The notes under the pieces: generated by a model
Databases searched by the model: none
What the model was told of the DNA's origin: nothing
What the model saw: only the letters and a program-made list of their open reading frames with translations
Part shown: piece after piece, positions 31,704-42,600 of the stretch
Layout of the letters: each line of letters starts with the position of its first letter
How positions within the stretch are numbered: position 1 is the stretch's first letter
Made by a program: the position numbers and the translations under genes
Origin: Pagrus major
Lineage: Eukaryota; Chordata; Actinopteri; Spariformes; Sparidae
DNA: 64,000 nucleotides
Assembly (NCBI RefSeq): GCF_040436345.1
Contig: NC_133233.1
Location: 11,179,381-11,243,380, forward strand
Direction: 5' to 3'

Positions 31704-34700
31704 ATGGCCTCGACTGTGGCAGACCGAGCCATTGGGGCCATAATTGGGGCAGCGGTGGCAGATGCAGCAGGTAAGATAAACTGTGATACTGATGTTGGGA
31801 CTGAGTTAATTACAGCAACAGGGCTTTACATGTTTAAAATCAAATCTGCCTCCTTCTGCTCCCCTATCCCAACAATTCATAGGCCTATTGCATGTTTTAA
31901 TGCTTTCCTACTTTTTCATGTTAAGTACATGTTTATCTCTCGCAATGCAAATGTGATACATAAGCGTTTATCCGTCATACTTGTTTGATCGGAGTTCAAC
32001 TATTCCCCATTGGTGATTAAATATCTGTAAAGCGTGCCCGTGCTCGTAAGGTGTTATACAATATGGCATTTCAAACAGTGTTTCATTGTTTTTGTAAGTG
32101 TCACACAGAAGCATTATCAGTAGCATTCATAAGCAACATCTGGACATGCTGATAAGCACAGGGTTGGTTCCATAACTTGTTAGTCATGCTGACTTTACAT
32201 GTGATGTTACAAAAGTTCTGTAACAGTTGACTGATAAACCTAAACCAGACGAAATTATCATCGCATTTCATTCTCAACACACTGTTTTGGTGATTGATTA
32301 ACATTTAGTTCTTGTTTAGATTCAGGATCCTCTCGCTCCAATATCACACAGCTACTTCCCTTCGCATGCTATCTAGTATCGACAGACTGTATGTATAGTA
32401 GTTCATGTCAAACACAAAAACAAAACTAGTGAATGTGTGTGTGTGTGTGTGTGTGTGTGTGATCCCCACCCATACAGCCCAGCCCATGCACTGGATCTAC
32501 AGTCAAGACAAGCTCAAAGAAATTCTCTCTGATCTCGAGCCCTGTCCTGAGTTTCGACCTCAGTCAGCGAATCCTTTCTACCTCCGGAAGACGGGTGAGC
32601 AGACCTGCTATGGAGACCAAGCGTATGTTCTGCTGGAGTCACTGAGCGAGTGTGGAGGTACTGAAATACACCCAAACAGGCAGCGACTATCAGTGAAAAT
32701 CTTAAACTTTTCCTTAAGTAGTCAACGTGCCACCCAATCCTTTAAACAGATATTTGCATATGAACGCTGAATCTGTAGACATGGGGCAAGAGTTGGGATT
32801 CTGATGCATTCTGGCTTGTAGTCCAAGTAGTATAGACCAATCACTTTGAGCGGGTTTTGGTTGCTTGAAGTCCATGTGGAGAGCAAAAGAAGCAGAACGC
32901 CCAAATGCAATTCTTGGAACCCATCAGCTATCGTATGATAGCTATTTATATTTTTTTTAGCTTTTATATATTTTTTTGCATTCATATGCAAATACATTAA
33001 GGGGCATTTCTCAACTCCAACTACATTCCCCTGTTTAAAGTTGCTAATAGCACTGCTGACCAGCGCATGGAAGTCTTAGCTTGGACATCTGTTATTTGGC
33101 TACACCGGAAGCCGCCAAGACGTTGTCCGTTGTCCCCAAAGTCTGAATTGTCATCAGACGACAGTTGATGGGTTCCGAAAACTGCACATCACCTTTAGAG
33201 ATCATTTACTTGTACAGTGTTTGATAGTGAACAAACAAAAAGACAAGAGTGATGTATTTCTCTTTAGATCATAAAGGTAATATAAATGTAAATGTGTTGC
33301 AAGATGTGAACGAGGAAGACCTGACCAAGCGCATCTACAAGTTCTTTGGCCCAGGAACCGTGTACGACCTGCCTCTCAATGACCCTTACAGGAAGAAAGG
33401 AGGTACTGTACCTGTTTTGTTTAACTGTCCATTTCACCAAACAACATGCCAATTCTGTGATGCCCATATACTGTATATTAATCATCAACTTAACAGGACT
33501 AAAAGGATGTGAGAGCCTCTGTTACTCTCTGATAACACTGTACAGAATGTTTTTCCTCATAGCCATGGGGAAATCCCTTTCCATGAAAATATTCCATACA
33601 GACAGACTTCCCTGTTCTCTGTGTCCAGAGTTTGGATATTTACTGTCAGGATATCATATAAATACAGTGCTGCTGTAAATCAACACAGCGGCACAGTGCA
33701 CCGTTGGGTACAGTGAACTGCAGGCGGCTTTATGTCTCAGAATAACATAAGCAGAGCTGTGTCATCATCATGGGCAGTGATAACCACCATGACTGAAGAG
33801 ACAGAGAAAAGAGCTCCACCTACAGAAACTTTAACAGAAGGTTGAAGGAAATGTTTCTTGTCCTCTCTCGCTTGTTTTTTCCCTCAGTCATAATTCTCTT
33901 ATTCTGTCTGTGCCATTTGTCTTCTAGTGAGGATGAAACTGTCAAATAACAGGGTATTAATTTGTATCATTAGGTCCAAAAGCCATTCTCCCCATCGATG
34001 GCCCCTGGAGAAACGGGAGCCTGAAAGCTTTCATGAGGAATGTGGACGCCGGCAAGGAAGAAACTGGTAAAGATCTCAAATCATAGGTACACCAAGACCT
34101 CCCCGGGCCCTTTTGGTTGTTCTAATCTCTCTGTGCGTGTATGTGTTTCCAAGGCTGTGATGTGGACTGTCAGATGGACGGCGTCACTAAGCTGGCTCCG
34201 GTGGTGGCCATGTATGCTGGCCGACCTGAGATGCTGGAGAAAGTGGAGAAAGCCATACGGGTGACCCAGAACAACGACATGTGTGTGGCTGAGACGCTGG
34301 CTGCAGCGCGGTAAGAGACGGTTCTGAAGACGATGATAACAGTTTGGTCAGGGACAGTCATACCATTATTTATATGGGAGTATTCACCATTCTTCTTCTG
34401 TCTTTGTTAGGTTTTTGGAGCATTTCATTCTGAATGGTCCAGATCCCAATGTTCTGAATGCAGTACTGGCTCAGATGAATGACCCAAAGAGACAGAACCC
34501 TCAAGAGCTGGACCGGGCTGTCATTGGTAAGGCTACATGTGTCTTTAAAGCTTCATTCAATTTGAGTTTCAAAGGAATAATTTGACATTAATCAATTTAA
34601 TTTGACAGAATATAATAACTGTTTGTGAAATATGAAGCTATACCCAGGAGTTGTTAAGCTTAGCTTAGCATAAAGACAGGAAGTAGGGGGAATTAAGTAG

Positions 34701-35239: not shown

Positions 35240-35286
<47 letters not shown>

Positions 35287-37343
35287 GGGGAGACAAAACA
35301 GAACACAGAAACCAGCCGTTCTTGAGGGAAATGTGGTCAAAATACATGATACACAAAATGCTACATGCAGTAACATGATCATGATCAAGAAACTATAGCA
35401 ACTGTGTTTCAAAATCAAAATATAATTTCAAGTTTCAACATATATGTGTATGGTACACAATGTTAGTTGTGACTGACAGCCAAAAATAGATTTTTTTTTT
35501 AAATGTTCAAACTCTCAACTATGCATGTTATCTCTCTTCCTGTATCCCTGCTGAAGCACATATCAACCAGGTGAAGGACAACCTAGCCAAGACGTCCCAG
35601 CAGCTCATACCTGCTGTGTTCACAGACACATGAGGTAAGCCAGTCGGCGGCAGCAGGATCCAGGTCTGTTGACTTGGCACGGCTTGCGCGCCCTCCCCGT
35701 CAGTATATCCGCTGGTGGGTCCTCCAGCCTTTGATCTCCTGACTCATGGTGTCCGTCCTCCTTCCTTTTCATTTTCCCCTTCCCGCTGAGTTGAGTGTCT
35801 CAGGTTTTACAGGGCTGAAAGGTTGAGATGCTTAAAGTGCATGTAAAGAGTTCTGCGTGGCAGATCTGTTCAAGTGCCTCCTTTAATTGTAGGATAATGA
35901 TGTTGCAAAAGTAAAACAACGTGTGATGTTTTTCAAGGCACAATGAACAAGAATAATCCTATATATTCAATTGATGTTTCATTACTGTATGATTTGCCGT
36001 GTTTCATGTATCTGCTGCTAAGTCTGAGTTTGTGTCTAGCTTTGCCTGGTGCGTTCCAAGGAGCGCTGCATGGAGTCCTGAAGCTGAACCAGCTGGATGA
36101 AGCCGTCAGGGACACCATGCGCCGCGGGGGATGCACCGCCAGCCGATCCTCCTTCATTGGAGCCTGTTTTGGGGCACAGGTACTGTAAGAAAAAGGTTCT
36201 CAGGCACATAAACAATCTTTTGTCACTGATACTGTTAAAGACTGTTTAAAGGGGTCATATTAGCCTTTTTAGGGTTTTTGCCTTTCCTTTTTTGTGTTGT
36301 GTAGCATTTTTGTGGCAGGCGTTATACAATTATATATTTTTTATATATTTATTATAAAATATACACACTCCAGTCTGTCTTTAAATCCCCCTTCAGTGTA
36401 GCTTCTCATATACTTTTGTCTTTTAAAGGTAGAGACATAATCTGCTGCTTTCAGCCAGTAAAGGGGCACTACGTAGTTTTGGGGAAGAAATTTTAATCGG
36501 AAGAGAAAGATTTTCATTGACTTACTTTTTTATGCTTTAACAAACTTAATTAACAAACTGACCTTAAAGGATAACACAGTGTCATACTGTTATACTGATG
36601 TTTGTATTATTACCTCATTCATATTGTAAATATTAAAAAACTGAGTTTGAATCTCGTCTCCAAAACTACACAGCACCCCTTTAAGTATTATTTTTACAGT
36701 CTGATAATATTTTGATATCAACAACGGATAAACAGACTATGTTTGTGATAGGGGTCGTTATTATAATGATGAACTTAAGGAGAGTTATCACCTGGCTCAG
36801 CTCTGCACAGTTTTTTAGTGTTTTTCAGCAGATTGTTTAGGTTTTCCTGCCAGCGACTTTACTGCTTTGGTTCACGCTCACGGCTCTTATCAGCATTGTT
36901 TCCAGTCATAGCAGACAGCTGTTTCCAGCGAAAAAAGAAAAAAAAAGCCCAAATCCAATGCACACTGCCCAGCATCCAACAGAAAAAGAGTTAGCAACTA
37001 GATGAGAGTTTACAGCTGTCAAACTAAAAGCAAAGTGATGAACTGAAGCTTACTTACATTTCAGGTCAAGCCCTGCAGTATTTACAGCGTCAGACAGACA
37101 GCAGCAGCATATGGAAATATATCATTCTGGATGTTGTTGTCTCTTAACTCTTTTGATGAGTTTGACAGTCAGCTCAGATATTCTGAAAGCTTTGTGCTTC
37201 CTCTGATGCTTTCAGCTGTCATCTTGATGTGTTTTCAGACTGGTCTCCAGGGAATCCCTGAGTCTTGGAGGAAGAGGACGTTCAGATATCCCCTGCTGTT
37301 GGAGCTTGCCGAAAACGTGATCCAAAAGAGTCAGCAAATGTAG
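31704..37343 (+). CDS. selenoj: Selenoprotein J (ADP-ribosylglycohydrolase / J1-crystallin-like, in-frame TGA = Sec263)
   Basis: There are nine coding exons: 31704-31770, 32478-32657, 33304-33402, 33974-34066, 34154-34310, 34411-34526, 35557-35634, 36040-36179 and 37239-37343. All junctions are GT-AG and in frame. The product is 344 residues, starting MASTVADRAIGAIIGAAVAD and ending ENVIQKSQQM, and has the ADP-ribosylglycohydrolase fold shared with jellyfish J1 crystallins. The only in-frame TGA is codon 263, at the end of exon 7. Past it, 81 conserved-looking residues continue (ALPGAFQGALHGVLKLNQLD and onward), so it reads as selenocysteine. Selenoprotein J is a known family largely confined to ray-finned fishes; its biochemical role is unsettled and a lens structural role has been proposed. 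Canonical metal-binding acids look replaced (YGDQ at 67-70, GGCTAS at 293-298). A TGA stop-only reading would give 262 residues and lose the C-terminal part of the fold. Confidence 0.93.
32434..32461 (+). repeat. selenoj: (GT)n microsatellite at selenoprotein J exon 2 acceptor
   Basis: A pure GT run ends 16 bases before exon 2, so only ATCCCCACCCATACAG separates it from the exon. It takes the place where the polypyrimidine tract would normally extend. Confidence 0.95.
34560..34960. repeat. Interspersed repeat, TTAGC-type family (copy in selenoprotein J intron 6)
   Basis: It contains GCTTAGCTTAGCATAAAGAC then AGGAAGTAGGGGG, and later GCTTCATATTAAGTGG, in the same order as the copy at 600-1055. 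It lies wholly inside the intron before the Sec exon. Confidence 0.6.
35241..35286. repeat. (GAAA)n microsatellite
   Basis: About eleven AGAA/GAAA units in selenoprotein J intron 6, 270 bp upstream of the Sec exon. Confidence 0.95.
35557..35634 (+). CDS. selenoj: selenoprotein J exon 7, carries the Sec TGA (35631-35633)
   Basis: The exon encodes HINQVKDNLAKTSQQLIPAV (20 residues), then FTDT, then TGA. One base (G, 35634) remains before the donor GTAAGC. It joins exon 8 at 36040 to make GCT (Ala264), followed by LPGAFQGALHG. The reading frame agrees on both sides of the TGA with the upstream phase (cumulative 790 nt to the exon end) and with the downstream exons, which argues against a chance stop. 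Confidence 0.9.
36051..36066 (+). promoter_or_regulatory. selenoj: Candidate stem-loop downstream of the Sec codon (SRE-like)
   Basis: In the spliced mRNA, 12 nt after the TGA, GCGTTC (36051-36056) can pair with GAGCGC (36061-36066) around a CAAG loop. This gives six base pairs including one T-G wobble. Stem-loops just 3' of UGA promote recoding in some selenoprotein mRNAs, for example SELENON. This one forms only after intron 7 is removed. It lies in coding sequence, so the pairing may be fortuitous. Confidence 0.4.
36459..36684. mobile_element. Short MITE in selenoprotein J intron 8
   Basis: The left end AAAGGGGCACTACGTAGTTTTGG and the complement of the right end AAAGGGGTGCTGTGTAGTTTTGG form terminal inverted repeats, flanked by TA on both sides. 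The element is 226 bp with no coding capacity, lying between the last two coding exons. Confidence 0.75.
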
Positions 37344-37435: not shown

Positions 37436-37497
37436 CTTTGACACGATGATCCATGACAGTTACATTCGAAAAGTCTCGCACTGGATGAAACTCGAAG
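37436..37497 (+). promoter_or_regulatory. selenoj: Candidate SECIS element in selenoprotein J 3' UTR
   Basis: A eukaryotic selenoprotein needs a SECIS in its 3' UTR, here limited to about 250 nt between the stop and the AATAAA. The best candidate by eye has helix 1 as CTTTGA (37436-37441) with TCGAAG (37492-37497), and a core ATGA (37446-37449) opposite TGA (37486-37488). TCCA pairs with TGGA above the core, and an AAAA run (37469-37472) sits in the apical part. The upper helix is weak and the 19 nt from ATGA to the A run is longer than usual. The exact boundaries are therefore doubtful and another fold in the same UTR is possible. Confidence 0.35.
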
Positions 37498-37589
37498 CCA
37501 TTTGCTCCGTCAAAGCTGTATCGTGCAAGAAAGTGAAAGTCTGCAAGTTCGTACCGAGGACATGCAGGTGCGTTGTAACAACAGTCTCA

Positions 37590-37595
37590 AATAAA
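37590..37595 (+). terminator. selenoj: selenoprotein J polyadenylation signal AATAAA
   Basis: A canonical AATAAA lies 247 bases after the TAG stop, followed by a T-rich stretch (ACTTTTATGTC and onward). It is the first such signal after the stop and implies a short 3' UTR. Confidence 0.65.
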
Positions 37596-39607
37596 GAAAC
37601 TTTTATGTCACAAACACGTCTTGTTCCATTATCTTTTTTATGTTCTCTGCTGCAAAGTGGCCTGTTGGGATTAACCTGAGGAAAGCTGCTTTGCCTTGAT
37701 GAGAAAGTCATTTTGCTGAAGTTAAATTTCTCCTCCCTTGAGTACTTTCTGTTATTGTGAAGAGAAAGAACAGATAGACACAGATTTACTACTGGAACAA
37801 CCCGACAGCAACCTATTCCTCCCTCGAAGGAGCTGTTCTGCCGGCCCAAAAGTGCTGACTTCCATATTCACGTTTTTTAAAGCAGCCGCCCCAACAACTC
37901 TGAAAGTTAGCCAAGCATTTAGCAAAGCCAAAGCCTTAATATCTTTGACATAGTGTGGTTATAAAAAAATGCACTGCGTAGGCTACTGCTGCAGTCCATT
38001 AGCTGTTTTACAGCTTATACTTGATAAATGATAAATAGTTTGACCTTGTTTGAATCTGGAACATTTCAATGTTAACACTGTAAATCACTACCTTTAATGT
38101 AAACTTGTGTTACATGTCATCTTGGCAGCGCAACAAGAAACTACTTTATGTGCGTTGTCAGTCGTGCAGACTGAATGCAACATAGGAACTATTAAACGTG
38201 TGGTTGCACAAACCTTCGAGCCATCGTTTAGCTGAGTAAAGGGCTTCTAGCTGACGGTGTGTTGGTAGCCTACAGAGGGGAAGTCATTTGATTTCTCTCT
38301 CTGCCTGACTTCCTCCCACACAGCAGGTAGCAGCCTTCGTCTGGCATAATTACATCCAGACCTGAAGGGTGTTTTTGTTTTCCTAAAATCTGCCAAATTC
38401 CGTTTCCTCGAGACATTTTTGGAGAAAGACAAGAGGGTTGCAGAGGATATCATGTTGTAGAAATGTTATCCACAGTGTGTCAGTATTACTCATACACAGC
38501 AAGCCAAATGATATTACATGTCAAGTCGAATTTATTGCAGCTTCATGAAGATAACAGTTATGGGAAATGTATTAACTCTCGCACAAGCAGCACTGGACTG
38601 TGTGGAGGTTTTACACCTGAGCAAATAACCTGCTTGCACTCAACCTGCGTCACGATGGTACGAAGCAGACATTTGTCTAAAGGGGAAGATCTAAGCAGTA
38701 TCCCCCTGTCTCCCATAACACCAATCTGTGATTTAATTTAATTAGAAGTTTGGAGTCCAGCCATGACTGCTGCTTATAAAAAAAGACGCAGTGCTCATGG
38801 GGACAGATGAGCCCCTTTCTCTCCCACTCCTCCTCCTCCTCCTCTGCACAGAAGCATCTTGTGATGCTCCTTATGGTGGGAAACACCCACGCACACATGG
38901 TGCCTCGAGGTGTCCTTTTGGTTTCCCTTTAATTTCCTTTAAATGTCTTACTTGTATATCTGACTGTAGTTTATTCTGGCTGGGCTTGATAACCGTAAGT
39001 GGCCTTTTGAAAATAGCATAACTACTGTATTAAATTGTTTTTAGTCATTTCTTGACTTTAATCGCTGTATTCGTATTATGTGTTGTTGAGACATTGAATG
39101 CAACATTCAGATTATGGTAGAGAAGGTGGTTTTCCTTCCATTTTGAACTAATGCCACCTGCTTCTCCACTCCCATATATCAGTAAAATTGTGTTGTGTGT
39201 CTTGCATTATGGAGATAAAAGCCCAGAGTTCAGTAGTAGTAATATATAAAATATATAAATATAAATATATAAATCTACTAGTGTAGTTTCACTTCCTATA
39301 CCTTGTACAAAAACATGAAACAACATTGTGTAAAAAAAACAAATCTTAAAGAAATATTCATTAAAAACATTGGAAACTCCATCCACGCATGCGCGACATT
39401 TTCTCACAGCTGTCAGACCAGACCAGGCCGTCGGTGTGAACCATCTTGTACGTATACTATCTTTGTCTGGATCAACAGCTGGGTGGAACTGCGACTAAGA
39501 AAAAAAAAAAAAAAAAAGTTGCCTCAATGACATTTTCTACAGGGATGGCAGTTTGACTGTGCGAGCAGCTAGCTGTTGTGTGAAGTGTTTATTTCCGCCG
39601 CCGTGCC
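37596..39607 (+). other. Spacer between selenoprotein J and sh3glb1
   Basis: About 2 kb separates the selenoprotein J polyadenylation signal from the sh3glb1 start codon. No exon is recognised. The last few dozen bases before 39608 are GC-richer (GCCGCCGTGCC) and probably form the sh3glb1 leader. An 18-base A run lies at 39500-39517. The sh3glb1 promoter must lie here or overlap the selenoprotein J terminator region. Confidence 0.6.
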
Positions 39608-42600
39608 ATGGATTTTAATGTTAAGCGGTTAGCCGCAGACGCCGGCACCTTCCTGAGCCGCGCGGTACAAGTAAGTTTGACCGTTCAGTTCGTGGAAGTT
39701 GTTGCTAACCAACGTTTAGCTGCTAGCTTAACCAGCCAGTTAGCGTTAGCTCGCCTGCTAAACAGCTAACGCCACTTAGCATGTAGCTAAGTAGCCCGTT
39801 ATCGTCTCAGAGGAAAAATCCATAACGTTATTCTGGAAAGTTGGCTGCAGTTACACTATTTGAGTGTTTTTTAAACGGAACCTCCGACATTTCAGTGTCT
39901 ATTATAGCCAGGCAGTTCAACATAACTATCAAAGCAGGCCTCAGAAACCATTTGATAGAGCTATCAACATTTACCAGACCGATAACCGTTTATATGTGTC
40001 AGATATCCGTCCAGCTTGTGAACATTAGATTAAAACTTCCATTAAACACGCCTTGTATGACACCTCGGGCCCGCACTATTTATACTATAATGTATCACTT
40101 TCCAGGTTATGGTTATGTGCTCATTATAACCGGATACTTTTGTTTTTGTTTTTGTTTCAGTTCACAGAAGAGAAATTTGGCCAGGCTGAAAAGACAGAGT
40201 TGGACGCCCATTTGGAGAACCTGTTGGTCAGAGCTGAGAACACCAAACAATGGACAGAGAGGATTATGAAGCAGACAGAAGTCTTACTACAGCCCAACCC
40301 AAGTAAGACCACGATTTTGTGTCTGTGATGAACTTGACTCATCTGACAAACAAAATGCTGACATACGGGACCCCTTTTCAGGGCAGTGTATGCTCCCCAC
40401 AATGAGGGAGAACGGCACCAAACCCCATTTATAAATCTGTCAACTAAATGCCACTCACTTTGCTCATCAATGCACTTTTAGGTTTCTTAACTCATGACAT
40501 ACAGACACTAATTCCTAATCTTAGAGTTAGATTCGTTATGATGCTTATCATCCAAAAGGCCTGCATCCCAGTGTTGATCTAAAAGGGGTCACATAAAAAA
40601 GGGCAAACATCTCTGAGATGTTGTTTGACACACATCAGTTGATAGGGCGTCTGTGAAGTCTGTAAGCTCAGCTGTGCATCCTCCTCTGCTCACACCACGG
40701 CGCCATGTTGCTGTATCACAACCACAGCACAGGCACAACAAACACAAGACGGACCAGCTGCTGCTTACAGTCATGTGTAACAGTCTTGGATATGGTAAAC
40801 TGGATTTGTTCTACTTACATACCACAGATATGTCGGCTGTGATTGTCAGTGTACATGCATATGATGTACATGTAATGTCATGGTTGTCATTATGAAAGCT
40901 TCTTTGTAACAAATGTAAGTCAGGCTGTTTTTGGACTCGCTGTCCTAAATTCACTGCCTGCGTTTGGCTGCCTCACTGTAGTCTTATGACTTTGTAATTG
41001 AGTTTTCTCGTCGCTATCTGCAGATGTCCGGCTAGAAGAATTTGTGTACGAGAAACTGGAGAAAAAAGCCCCTACACGAATGAACAACCATGAGCTGCTG
41101 GGCCAGTCCATGATCGAGTCAGGAAATGAATTTGGTCCTGGAACTGCCTATGGTGAGTGATACACTGACATGCTGGGACTTAAATGAACATAACTCCTTC
41201 TGAATCCTGCTCAACCTTGGCTGTGGCTCATACTGTTTTTATTTATGGAGTTTATTTGTCTTATTCCTGCCGCTGGTTGACAAACACAATCATCCCCTGC
41301 AGATTCCTCAATTTATGGAACAAACAAAATTGATGCAAGTTTCTTTACTGTCGTGTGTAGATGTGTAAAATTGAGTGAAGGCTTTTCGACACTTCCTGGA
41401 AAACATTTGAGCACCACTACATTTTGAACATCTGTATCATCCTTTGCCACGACTTTCATTGTCACAAACACTTTTAGCTTACCGGCTTAAAGTATAGATT
41501 TTGTTTTAAAAAAGGGTGAAAATATCATCTTTTAAAATCAATTCAGGAACTTGGGCCTTCTGGAGGCTTCGATTATGCTGGACAAGCTGTACAGTGCGAT
41601 TTAAGATGTTCTCTCAGTCGTCTGAGAATGATGCAACGCTGTTTTGCTTTAAAGCTCCGGAAATATTTTGTCGACTATGAAACGTCACCCGACTTTCCAT
41701 CGGTGTTGCGATGAGAAGATAATGAAGTTTTTTTTGCATGAACTGATCCTTTAATGTAAGGCGGTAACATGTTTTCCAAATTAGTTCTGATGAAGCGAAT
41801 ATGTAAAACATGTGACTAATCTGTTTTTTTCCACTTTGAGAGAAGAAGAAAGAGAGGCTGTGTCCGTTGTCTGCCCAGATACTCCCATAAGATTCCCAGA
41901 TTCTTTCGTAGACGGCCTGTGTGACCTGTTTGGTTTCTTCTTCTTTGAGGTTTATTGGCATTTGGCAAACAACTGATTTTATTTCCAGTTCATAACCTCT
42001 ACTTCTTCTACATCTTTTCACTCATTTCATAACAGTCTACATTGCCATCTTCTGATGAAAACATGTGTTGCCTGGAAAAGTGCCTACTTTGCATTTTCTT
42101 TTATTTGTTTTTTGGTCATTTATTTGACATTTCAAAAATTTGCTTCAAATTTGCTTGAAAATTATATTGAAACACAGCCAAGGCCTCGGCTTGTTAGCAC
42201 CTTTGAACAACAGCGCTTTCTTTGTAACCACAGGCCTCTGCGTCTGCTCAGTATTGAAGTACTTAGGCTTAAGTTGAGACTGTTGTGCCACATTGTACAT
42301 TTGTACCGCTGTCCTGTGTTGTATTCAGAGTGAAACTATGCTTATGCTGCTGACCATTACAGGGAACGCTCTGACAAAATGTGGCGAGACGGAGAAACAG
42401 ATCGGTGGAGCAGAGCGGGAGTTAATCCAAAGTGCTGCCATCAACTTCCTGACACCTTTCAGAAACTTTCTTGAAGGAGACTTCAAAACCATCCTGGTGA
42501 GTTTGACTGCTGGATCACTTTCACTTTTCACTGAACTTTCAACCTTTGTCCTGAACCGACACCTCAAACTATAGAGTGGTGCCGGGATGACGTATTTTTG

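Follow-up and report, generated by a model that had tools for sequence, protein, structure and literature searches.

The window, by which we mean the whole stretch of 64,000 nucleotides of DNA analysed here, very probably carries the selenoprotein J (SelJ) gene of a fish in which the UGA at codon 263 is read as selenocysteine (Sec), and this reading has all the support that sequence by itself can give. We propose that nine coding exons would be spliced into an mRNA carrying UGA at codon 263, which would be decoded as Sec with a SECIS element in the 3'-UTR and the tRNA-Sec to give a protein of 344 residues. The gene itself is an ordinary member of the published fish SelJ/SelJ2 family. More tentatively, the comparison with bacterial relatives points to SelJ as a member of an ancient lineage with the ADP-ribosylhydrolase fold, one that may have abandoned its metal site and may carry a single thiol (in bacteria) or selenol (in fish) at the former substrate entry.

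SelJ is akin to the ADP-ribosylglycohydrolase family, and work by Castellano in 2005 reportedly linked it to the jellyfish J1-crystallins. In the excerpts of the literature used here and below, SelJ is found among vertebrates only in fish, of which medaka and stickleback possess a duplicate, SelJ2 (PMC3316567), and is tabled in one of six invertebrates, Bf (PMC3473315), which we take as amphioxus. The gene in the window resembles these fish genes in its Sec-encoding TGA and in having a SelJ2 duplicate, and its membership in the ADP-ribosylglycohydrolase family is given here by Pfam. The algal SELENOJ, which we liken to the SelJ of the window by family name, has both Sec and Cys members (PMC7539508). 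Mass spectrometry of zebrafish larvae detects Selenoj together with other selenoproteins, and its level is lowered in sbp2 mutants (PMC8881744). A role in stress resistance in tilapia appears in the table of one review (PMC10169727).

Results and Discussion

The features of the locus are given below; all lie on the forward strand of the window.

31704 to 31770, + strand: coding exon 1, starting with the ATG at 31704; an AG stands directly before the ATG, likewise in the paralogue
32478 to 32657, + strand: coding exon 2, with TCYGDQ, the altered N-terminal metal motif
33304 to 33402, + strand: coding exon 3, 99 nt, the same as exon 3 of the paralogue
33974 to 34066, + strand: coding exon 4
34154 to 34310, + strand: coding exon 5
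34411 to 34526, + strand: coding exon 6
35557 to 35634, + strand: coding exon 7, 78 nt, phase 1-1, ending in TGA-G before gtaagc
35631 to 35633, + strand: TGA, codon 263, very probably read as Sec; the aligned codon is also TGA in the paralogue, with Cys (29/32) or Ser (3/32) in the bacterial relatives
36040 to 36179, + strand: coding exon 8, ALPGAFQGALHG, with GGCTAS, the altered C-terminal metal motif; same residue as the paralogue in 32 of 46 codons
37239 to 37343, + strand: coding exon 9, ending with the TAG at 37341 to 37343; same residue as the paralogue in 15 of 33 compared codons
37445 to 37505, + strand: SECIS-like element (RF00031, 24.8 bits, under the 35-bit cut-off)
37590 to 37595, + strand: AATAAA poly(A) signal, downstream of the SECIS-like element, which itself follows the stop codon

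Spliced together, the nine coding exons give 344 codons before the TAG, with all introns of the GT...AG type and only one TGA in frame, at codon 263. The preliminary description had placed this TGA one base before a splice donor, and that proved exact to the base: positions 35628-35640 read ACA-TGA-G followed by gtaagc, with the G at 35634 and the donor at 35635-35640. Its further account of the frame held as well. The frame of the six upstream exons enters exon 7, meets the TGA and then stays open for 81 codons through exons 8 and 9 up to the TAG, and the ADP-ribosylglycohydrolase-like character that had been ascribed to the part after the TGA is confirmed by a match to Pfam PF03747 (ADP_ribosyl_GH; E 2.4e-38) over residues 11-318. 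Two points of the model leave room for variation. The AG that abuts the ATG, found also in the paralogue, makes a non-coding first exon upstream of 31704 likely. For exon 3 the frame also permits an acceptor at 33268, whose pyrimidine tract is better than that of the one at 33304; use of 33268 would add 12 codons, giving 356 codons in total with the TGA as codon 275. We kept the 344-codon model with the acceptor at 33304 because exon 3 of the paralogue is also 99 nt long, and regard the 12-codon splice variant as possible. By eye, we also saw an AAAG microsatellite in intron 6 (35241-35285) and, a short way before exon 2, a run of GT in intron 1 (32434-32460). The next downstream gene on the same strand (39608-40302) shows the first exons of an endophilin-B1 (SH3GLB1-like), with a BAR domain match at E 2.1e-14 and a match to PDB 6up6 at E 5.5e-34.

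The source genome, 786 Mb in 25 contigs, contains a second SelJ copy on another contig, which we call SelJ2 (G000:C21:9482924-9485722, that is L021:1924-4722). It has nine exons and 341 codons, with a TGA at codon 262 that is again followed by a single G and then the donor (TGA-G-gt). Seven of the nine exons are identical in length between the two genes, exons 2 and 9 of SelJ2 being shorter by 3 and 6 nt, and all exon phases agree. Upstream of the TGA the synonymous sites have diverged widely (pS 0.69), and despite this the layout and the TGA-G-gt arrangement are common to both genes, which is more than chance would be expected to leave in two such sequences. We restricted the comparison to SelJ2 and left out the other PF03747 matches of the same genome. 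That the gene comes from a fish is concluded from the two SelJ copies, the neighbouring endophilin-B1 gene and the distribution of SelJ in the literature.

If the TGA were an ordinary stop, which is what a TGA means by default, the gene would make a truncated protein of 262 residues and the downstream exons would be relics. The divergence of exon 9 (15/33) and the sub-threshold scores of the SECIS matches would fit such a decay. The codon comparison speaks a different language. The two paralogues have the same residue in 231 of 341 aligned codons, with the TGA pair counted as one; 183 of the 261 codons before the TGA are the same (dN/dS 0.10), and after it 47 of 79 comparable codons are identical with a dN/dS of 0.34 and a bootstrap pN/pS of 0.34-0.68 (95%). 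The other two frames of the post-TGA DNA, stop codons omitted, gave 1.0 and 1.7. With 47/79 codons identical, a dN/dS of 0.34 and these values for the other frames, the post-TGA frame appears to have been used as protein since SelJ and SelJ2 split, and the conservation beyond the TGA whose absence would have spoken against the preliminary description is thus present. The constraint is looser after the TGA than before it (0.34 vs 0.10) and loosest in exon 9, indicating that the end of the post-TGA protein is under a looser constraint. Besides the 79 codons with a pN/pS below 1, a TGA kept in both paralogues in the face of the diverged upstream synonymous sites argues against a stop, as does the Pfam match, about the last fifth of which (residues 264-318 of 11-318) lies beyond the TGA. 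Moreover, a stop 141 nt short of the junction of exons 8 and 9 would be expected to make the mRNA prone to nonsense-mediated decay. We therefore give an ordinary stop almost no credence.

Skipping of exon 7 has to be considered in the same context. The exon is 78 nt long and of phase 1-1, so its removal is frame-neutral: it deletes the TGA and leaves an open frame of 318 residues, which would correspond to a normal protein without Sec and 26 codons. Exon 7, however, evolves as a coding exon, with the same residue in 15 of 25 codons of SelJ and SelJ2 (pN 0.17, pS 0.76); its length is unchanged in SelJ2, and its end aligns with an FGxxC stretch of the bacterial relatives. Skipping of this kind is furthermore a known class of annotation error for selenoproteins (PMC12822975, in the part available), and we consider a genuinely skipped exon 7 highly improbable. 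The preliminary description had also called the locus easily misannotated. The frame-neutral skip and the known error class bear this out in part; against it, selenoproteins have a pipeline of their own in RefSeq, where the annotation is good for 77% of the vertebrate selenoprotein genes and no poorer for fish-specific families (PMC12822975, same excerpt).

Sec insertion calls for a SECIS element, and the preliminary description had proposed to search the 3'-UTR for one. The search gave a divided answer. Scanning the whole window against Rfam at the gathering threshold returned no match, but cmscan with an E-value threshold placed SECIS_1 (RF00031) at 37445-37505, so that a SECIS-like element is present, although its 24.8 bits stay under the cut-off of 35. 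Its E-value of 0.052 over 4227 families corresponds by division to about 1.2e-5 for one family. The SECIS-like core consists of ATGA (37453-37456), AAAA (37469-37472) and GA (37494-37495), and helix II, in which 37458-37467 pairs with 37483-37492, holds an A-A mismatch. SelJ2 has a comparable element at L021:4804-4864 (18.9 bits against the same cut-off of 35; E 2.5, by division about 6e-4 for a single family). In both genes the element follows the stop and precedes the first AATAAA, which is at 37590 in SelJ and L021:4908 in SelJ2, and both elements show the same order of ATGA, a ten-position helix, unpaired A's and GA on the 3' side. Across the two genes 19 of 20 cells of helix II are paired with 3 two-sided changes, and sliding the partner reduces the pairing to 30-50%; as the helix was drawn from the same two sequences, the shuffle control is weak, with the covariation reached in 67 and the pairing in 37 of 500 shuffles. 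The folding energy separates the two elements: the SelJ2 element is clearly folded (z -2.47), whereas that of SelJ (z +1.21) is equalled by 183 of 200 shuffles and has no SECIS shape by energy alone. The case for a SECIS in the SelJ 3'-UTR is hence carried by the core motif, the position before the AATAAA and the pairing common to SelJ2, not by the scores or the folding energy of the window element, and we speak of a putative element for this reason. A hairpin at 38172 that a pattern scan ranked higher by energy was discarded; it lies past the first AATAAA (37590), and cmscan gave no SECIS match for it.

Elsewhere in the genome at least four SECIS elements score above the cut-off among 150 scored of 18245 candidates. 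This genome-wide search listed neither SelJ element, an absence that is uninformative with 150 of 18245 candidates scored. In the control genomes the same search gave matches in 4 of 14 and none above the cut-off. The best tRNA-Sec match of the genome reaches 77.6 bits and the next best 47.2; given that the model matches all 14 control genomes, 5 of them above the cut-off, only this gap in score counts. Taken together, the TGA of the paralogue, the constraint after the TGA, the sub-threshold SECIS-like elements and the tRNA-Sec match support the central proposal of the preliminary description, that the TGA encodes Sec in a selenoprotein J.

Relatives of SelJ outside the fish were sought with the 148-residue middle part of SelJ and SelJ2 in GTDB contigs. 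The first scan of genome contigs confirmed none among 594 stretches, and viral contigs searched for SelJ relatives gave none; the second pass of the GTDB scan furnished four relatives (L030-L033), all in records titled Deltaproteobacteria. In 395 genomes from the phylum of one of these four (G004), where at most 5 candidates were scored in most genomes, we then count at least 47 matches in 43 genomes with E 1e-20 or better, and a repeat of this search yielded no gene from any new genome. We read 32 genes, namely L030-L033 and L040-L067, the latter coming from 28 genomes and being 28 of the best 30 of the 47 matches (two repeated L033 and L030). The counts below refer to these 32; the 17 further matches and four additional genes (G416-G419) stand outside the count of the Sec column, and a TGA is listed for two of them, G148 (partial, with TGA and TAG) and G418.

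At the column of the Sec residue, 29 of the 32 bacterial relatives have Cys and three (L044, L045 and L046) have Ser, and none of the 32 genes contains an in-frame TGA, so that the bacterial proteins differ from SelJ in having Cys or Ser at this column. It is the only column with at least 10 Cys among the 32. Because Cys had been written for the TGA residue, we masked the residue in turn as X, A, S and G, aligned each version in four modes, and found the column unmoved in all 16 realignments; aligning the bacterial profile to masked SelJ and SelJ2 placed Sec at the same column. The relatives are remote, with identities to L033 of 28% for SelJ and 26% for SelJ2, and all 32 share the motif [TS]-x-Y-G-D-Q. 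In the surroundings of 17 of the 32 loci, which we inspected by eye, the gene downstream in L031, L033 and L041 codes for a similar efflux-type transporter, and enoyl-CoA hydratase-like genes lie near the SelJ-like gene in L030, L042 and L045; the neighbours are otherwise varied, and we draw no operon logic from them. In the accessible portions of the open-licence literature searched, we did not find bacterial Cys relatives of SelJ described, and the text returned by a term search of PMC13188914 leaves SelJ unmentioned.

A PDB search with SelJ returned no close chain, the best being MJ1187 (1t5j) at E 2.8e-8. The aspartates of the TDD and GGDxD motifs are the metal ligands of the ADP-ribosylhydrolases. 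TDD and GGDTDS of MJ1187 become TCY and GGCTAS in SelJ and SCY and GGCTCS in SelJ2, so that SelJ lacks the aspartate ligands in both motifs that characterise a Mg-dependent hydrolase of the ARH/DraG type. ARH3, the DraG-type ADP-ribosylhydrolases and MJ1187 thus belong to the same family as SelJ by sequence, but retain the metal aspartates that SelJ is without. The bacterial relatives have THY or SHY and GGD-x-[AS] at these motifs. In all 32, H-Y replaces the D-D of MJ1187 and D-[SN]-[AS] its D-T-D, where SelJ has C-Y and C-T-A; three metal-site aspartates are accordingly missing in every bacterial sequence, as in SelJ, which is without all four, and one Asp survives in their GGD, which in SelJ is GGC. 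That the N-terminal aspartates are lost is read from the alignments to MJ1187, 2cwc and 2woe; in the alignment to ARH3, which contains an insertion at this place, the position of TDD over YGDQ differs by one step. An altered metal motif (GGPVCQR) also occurs in chain FP of PDB 6sga, which matches the C-terminal part of SelJ; this chain is mt-SAF23, which we take to be a trypanosome mitoribosome assembly factor. That SelJ is still a metal-dependent ADP-ribosylhydrolase could be argued from its Pfam family membership and its sequence matches to solved hydrolases, but with TDD and GGDTDS replaced in both paralogues we regard this as improbable.

The column that holds Sec in SelJ and mostly Cys in the bacteria aligns with a Val in MJ1187 and, in the 347-residue ARH3 chain 2g4k, with residue 255, which is an Ile. 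We assume that this chain starts at residue 17, which makes residue 255 Ile271 of ARH3. According to the excerpt of PMC8319183, Asn269, Gly270 and Ile271 of ARH3 lie along the peptide channel and their mutation left the activity unchanged. Since mutating Ile271 had no effect on ARH3 activity, the position need not be catalytic.

From these data we propose that SelJ would be an ADP-ribosylhydrolase fold minus its metal site and would not act as a Mg-dependent ADP-ribosylhydrolase. Its selenol, which stands where the bacterial relatives mostly have Cys and where ARH3 has Ile271, would be the functional group within what was the substrate cleft, serving redox or covalent chemistry. This functional part of our explanation is drawn from alignments, and we hold it with a confidence slightly short of even. 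Alternatively, SelJ could be a true selenoprotein in which Sec is a structural residue, or the protein a lens crystallin, with no chemistry involved. The lost metal-site aspartates and the reported link of SelJ to the J1-crystallins of jellyfish would suit such a role, but the Sec column is the sole Cys-rich column in 32 relatives from bacteria, which have no lens. We find a structural or crystallin role less likely and favour redox or covalent chemistry in the old cleft.

Conclusion

In summary, the gene in the window is one more fish SelJ; it will not surprise a specialist, and its main use is as an example of a locus where ordinary annotation can go wrong. The part that deserves a second look is the bacterial Cys column. 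Together with the lost metal site and the match to the peptide channel of ARH3, the Cys found in 29 of 32 relatives provides a testable idea of what selenium does in SelJ. If this idea is true, the bacterial proteins would be the non-eukaryotic counterparts of SelJ with Cys in place of Sec, and the function of SelJ could be studied in bacteria.
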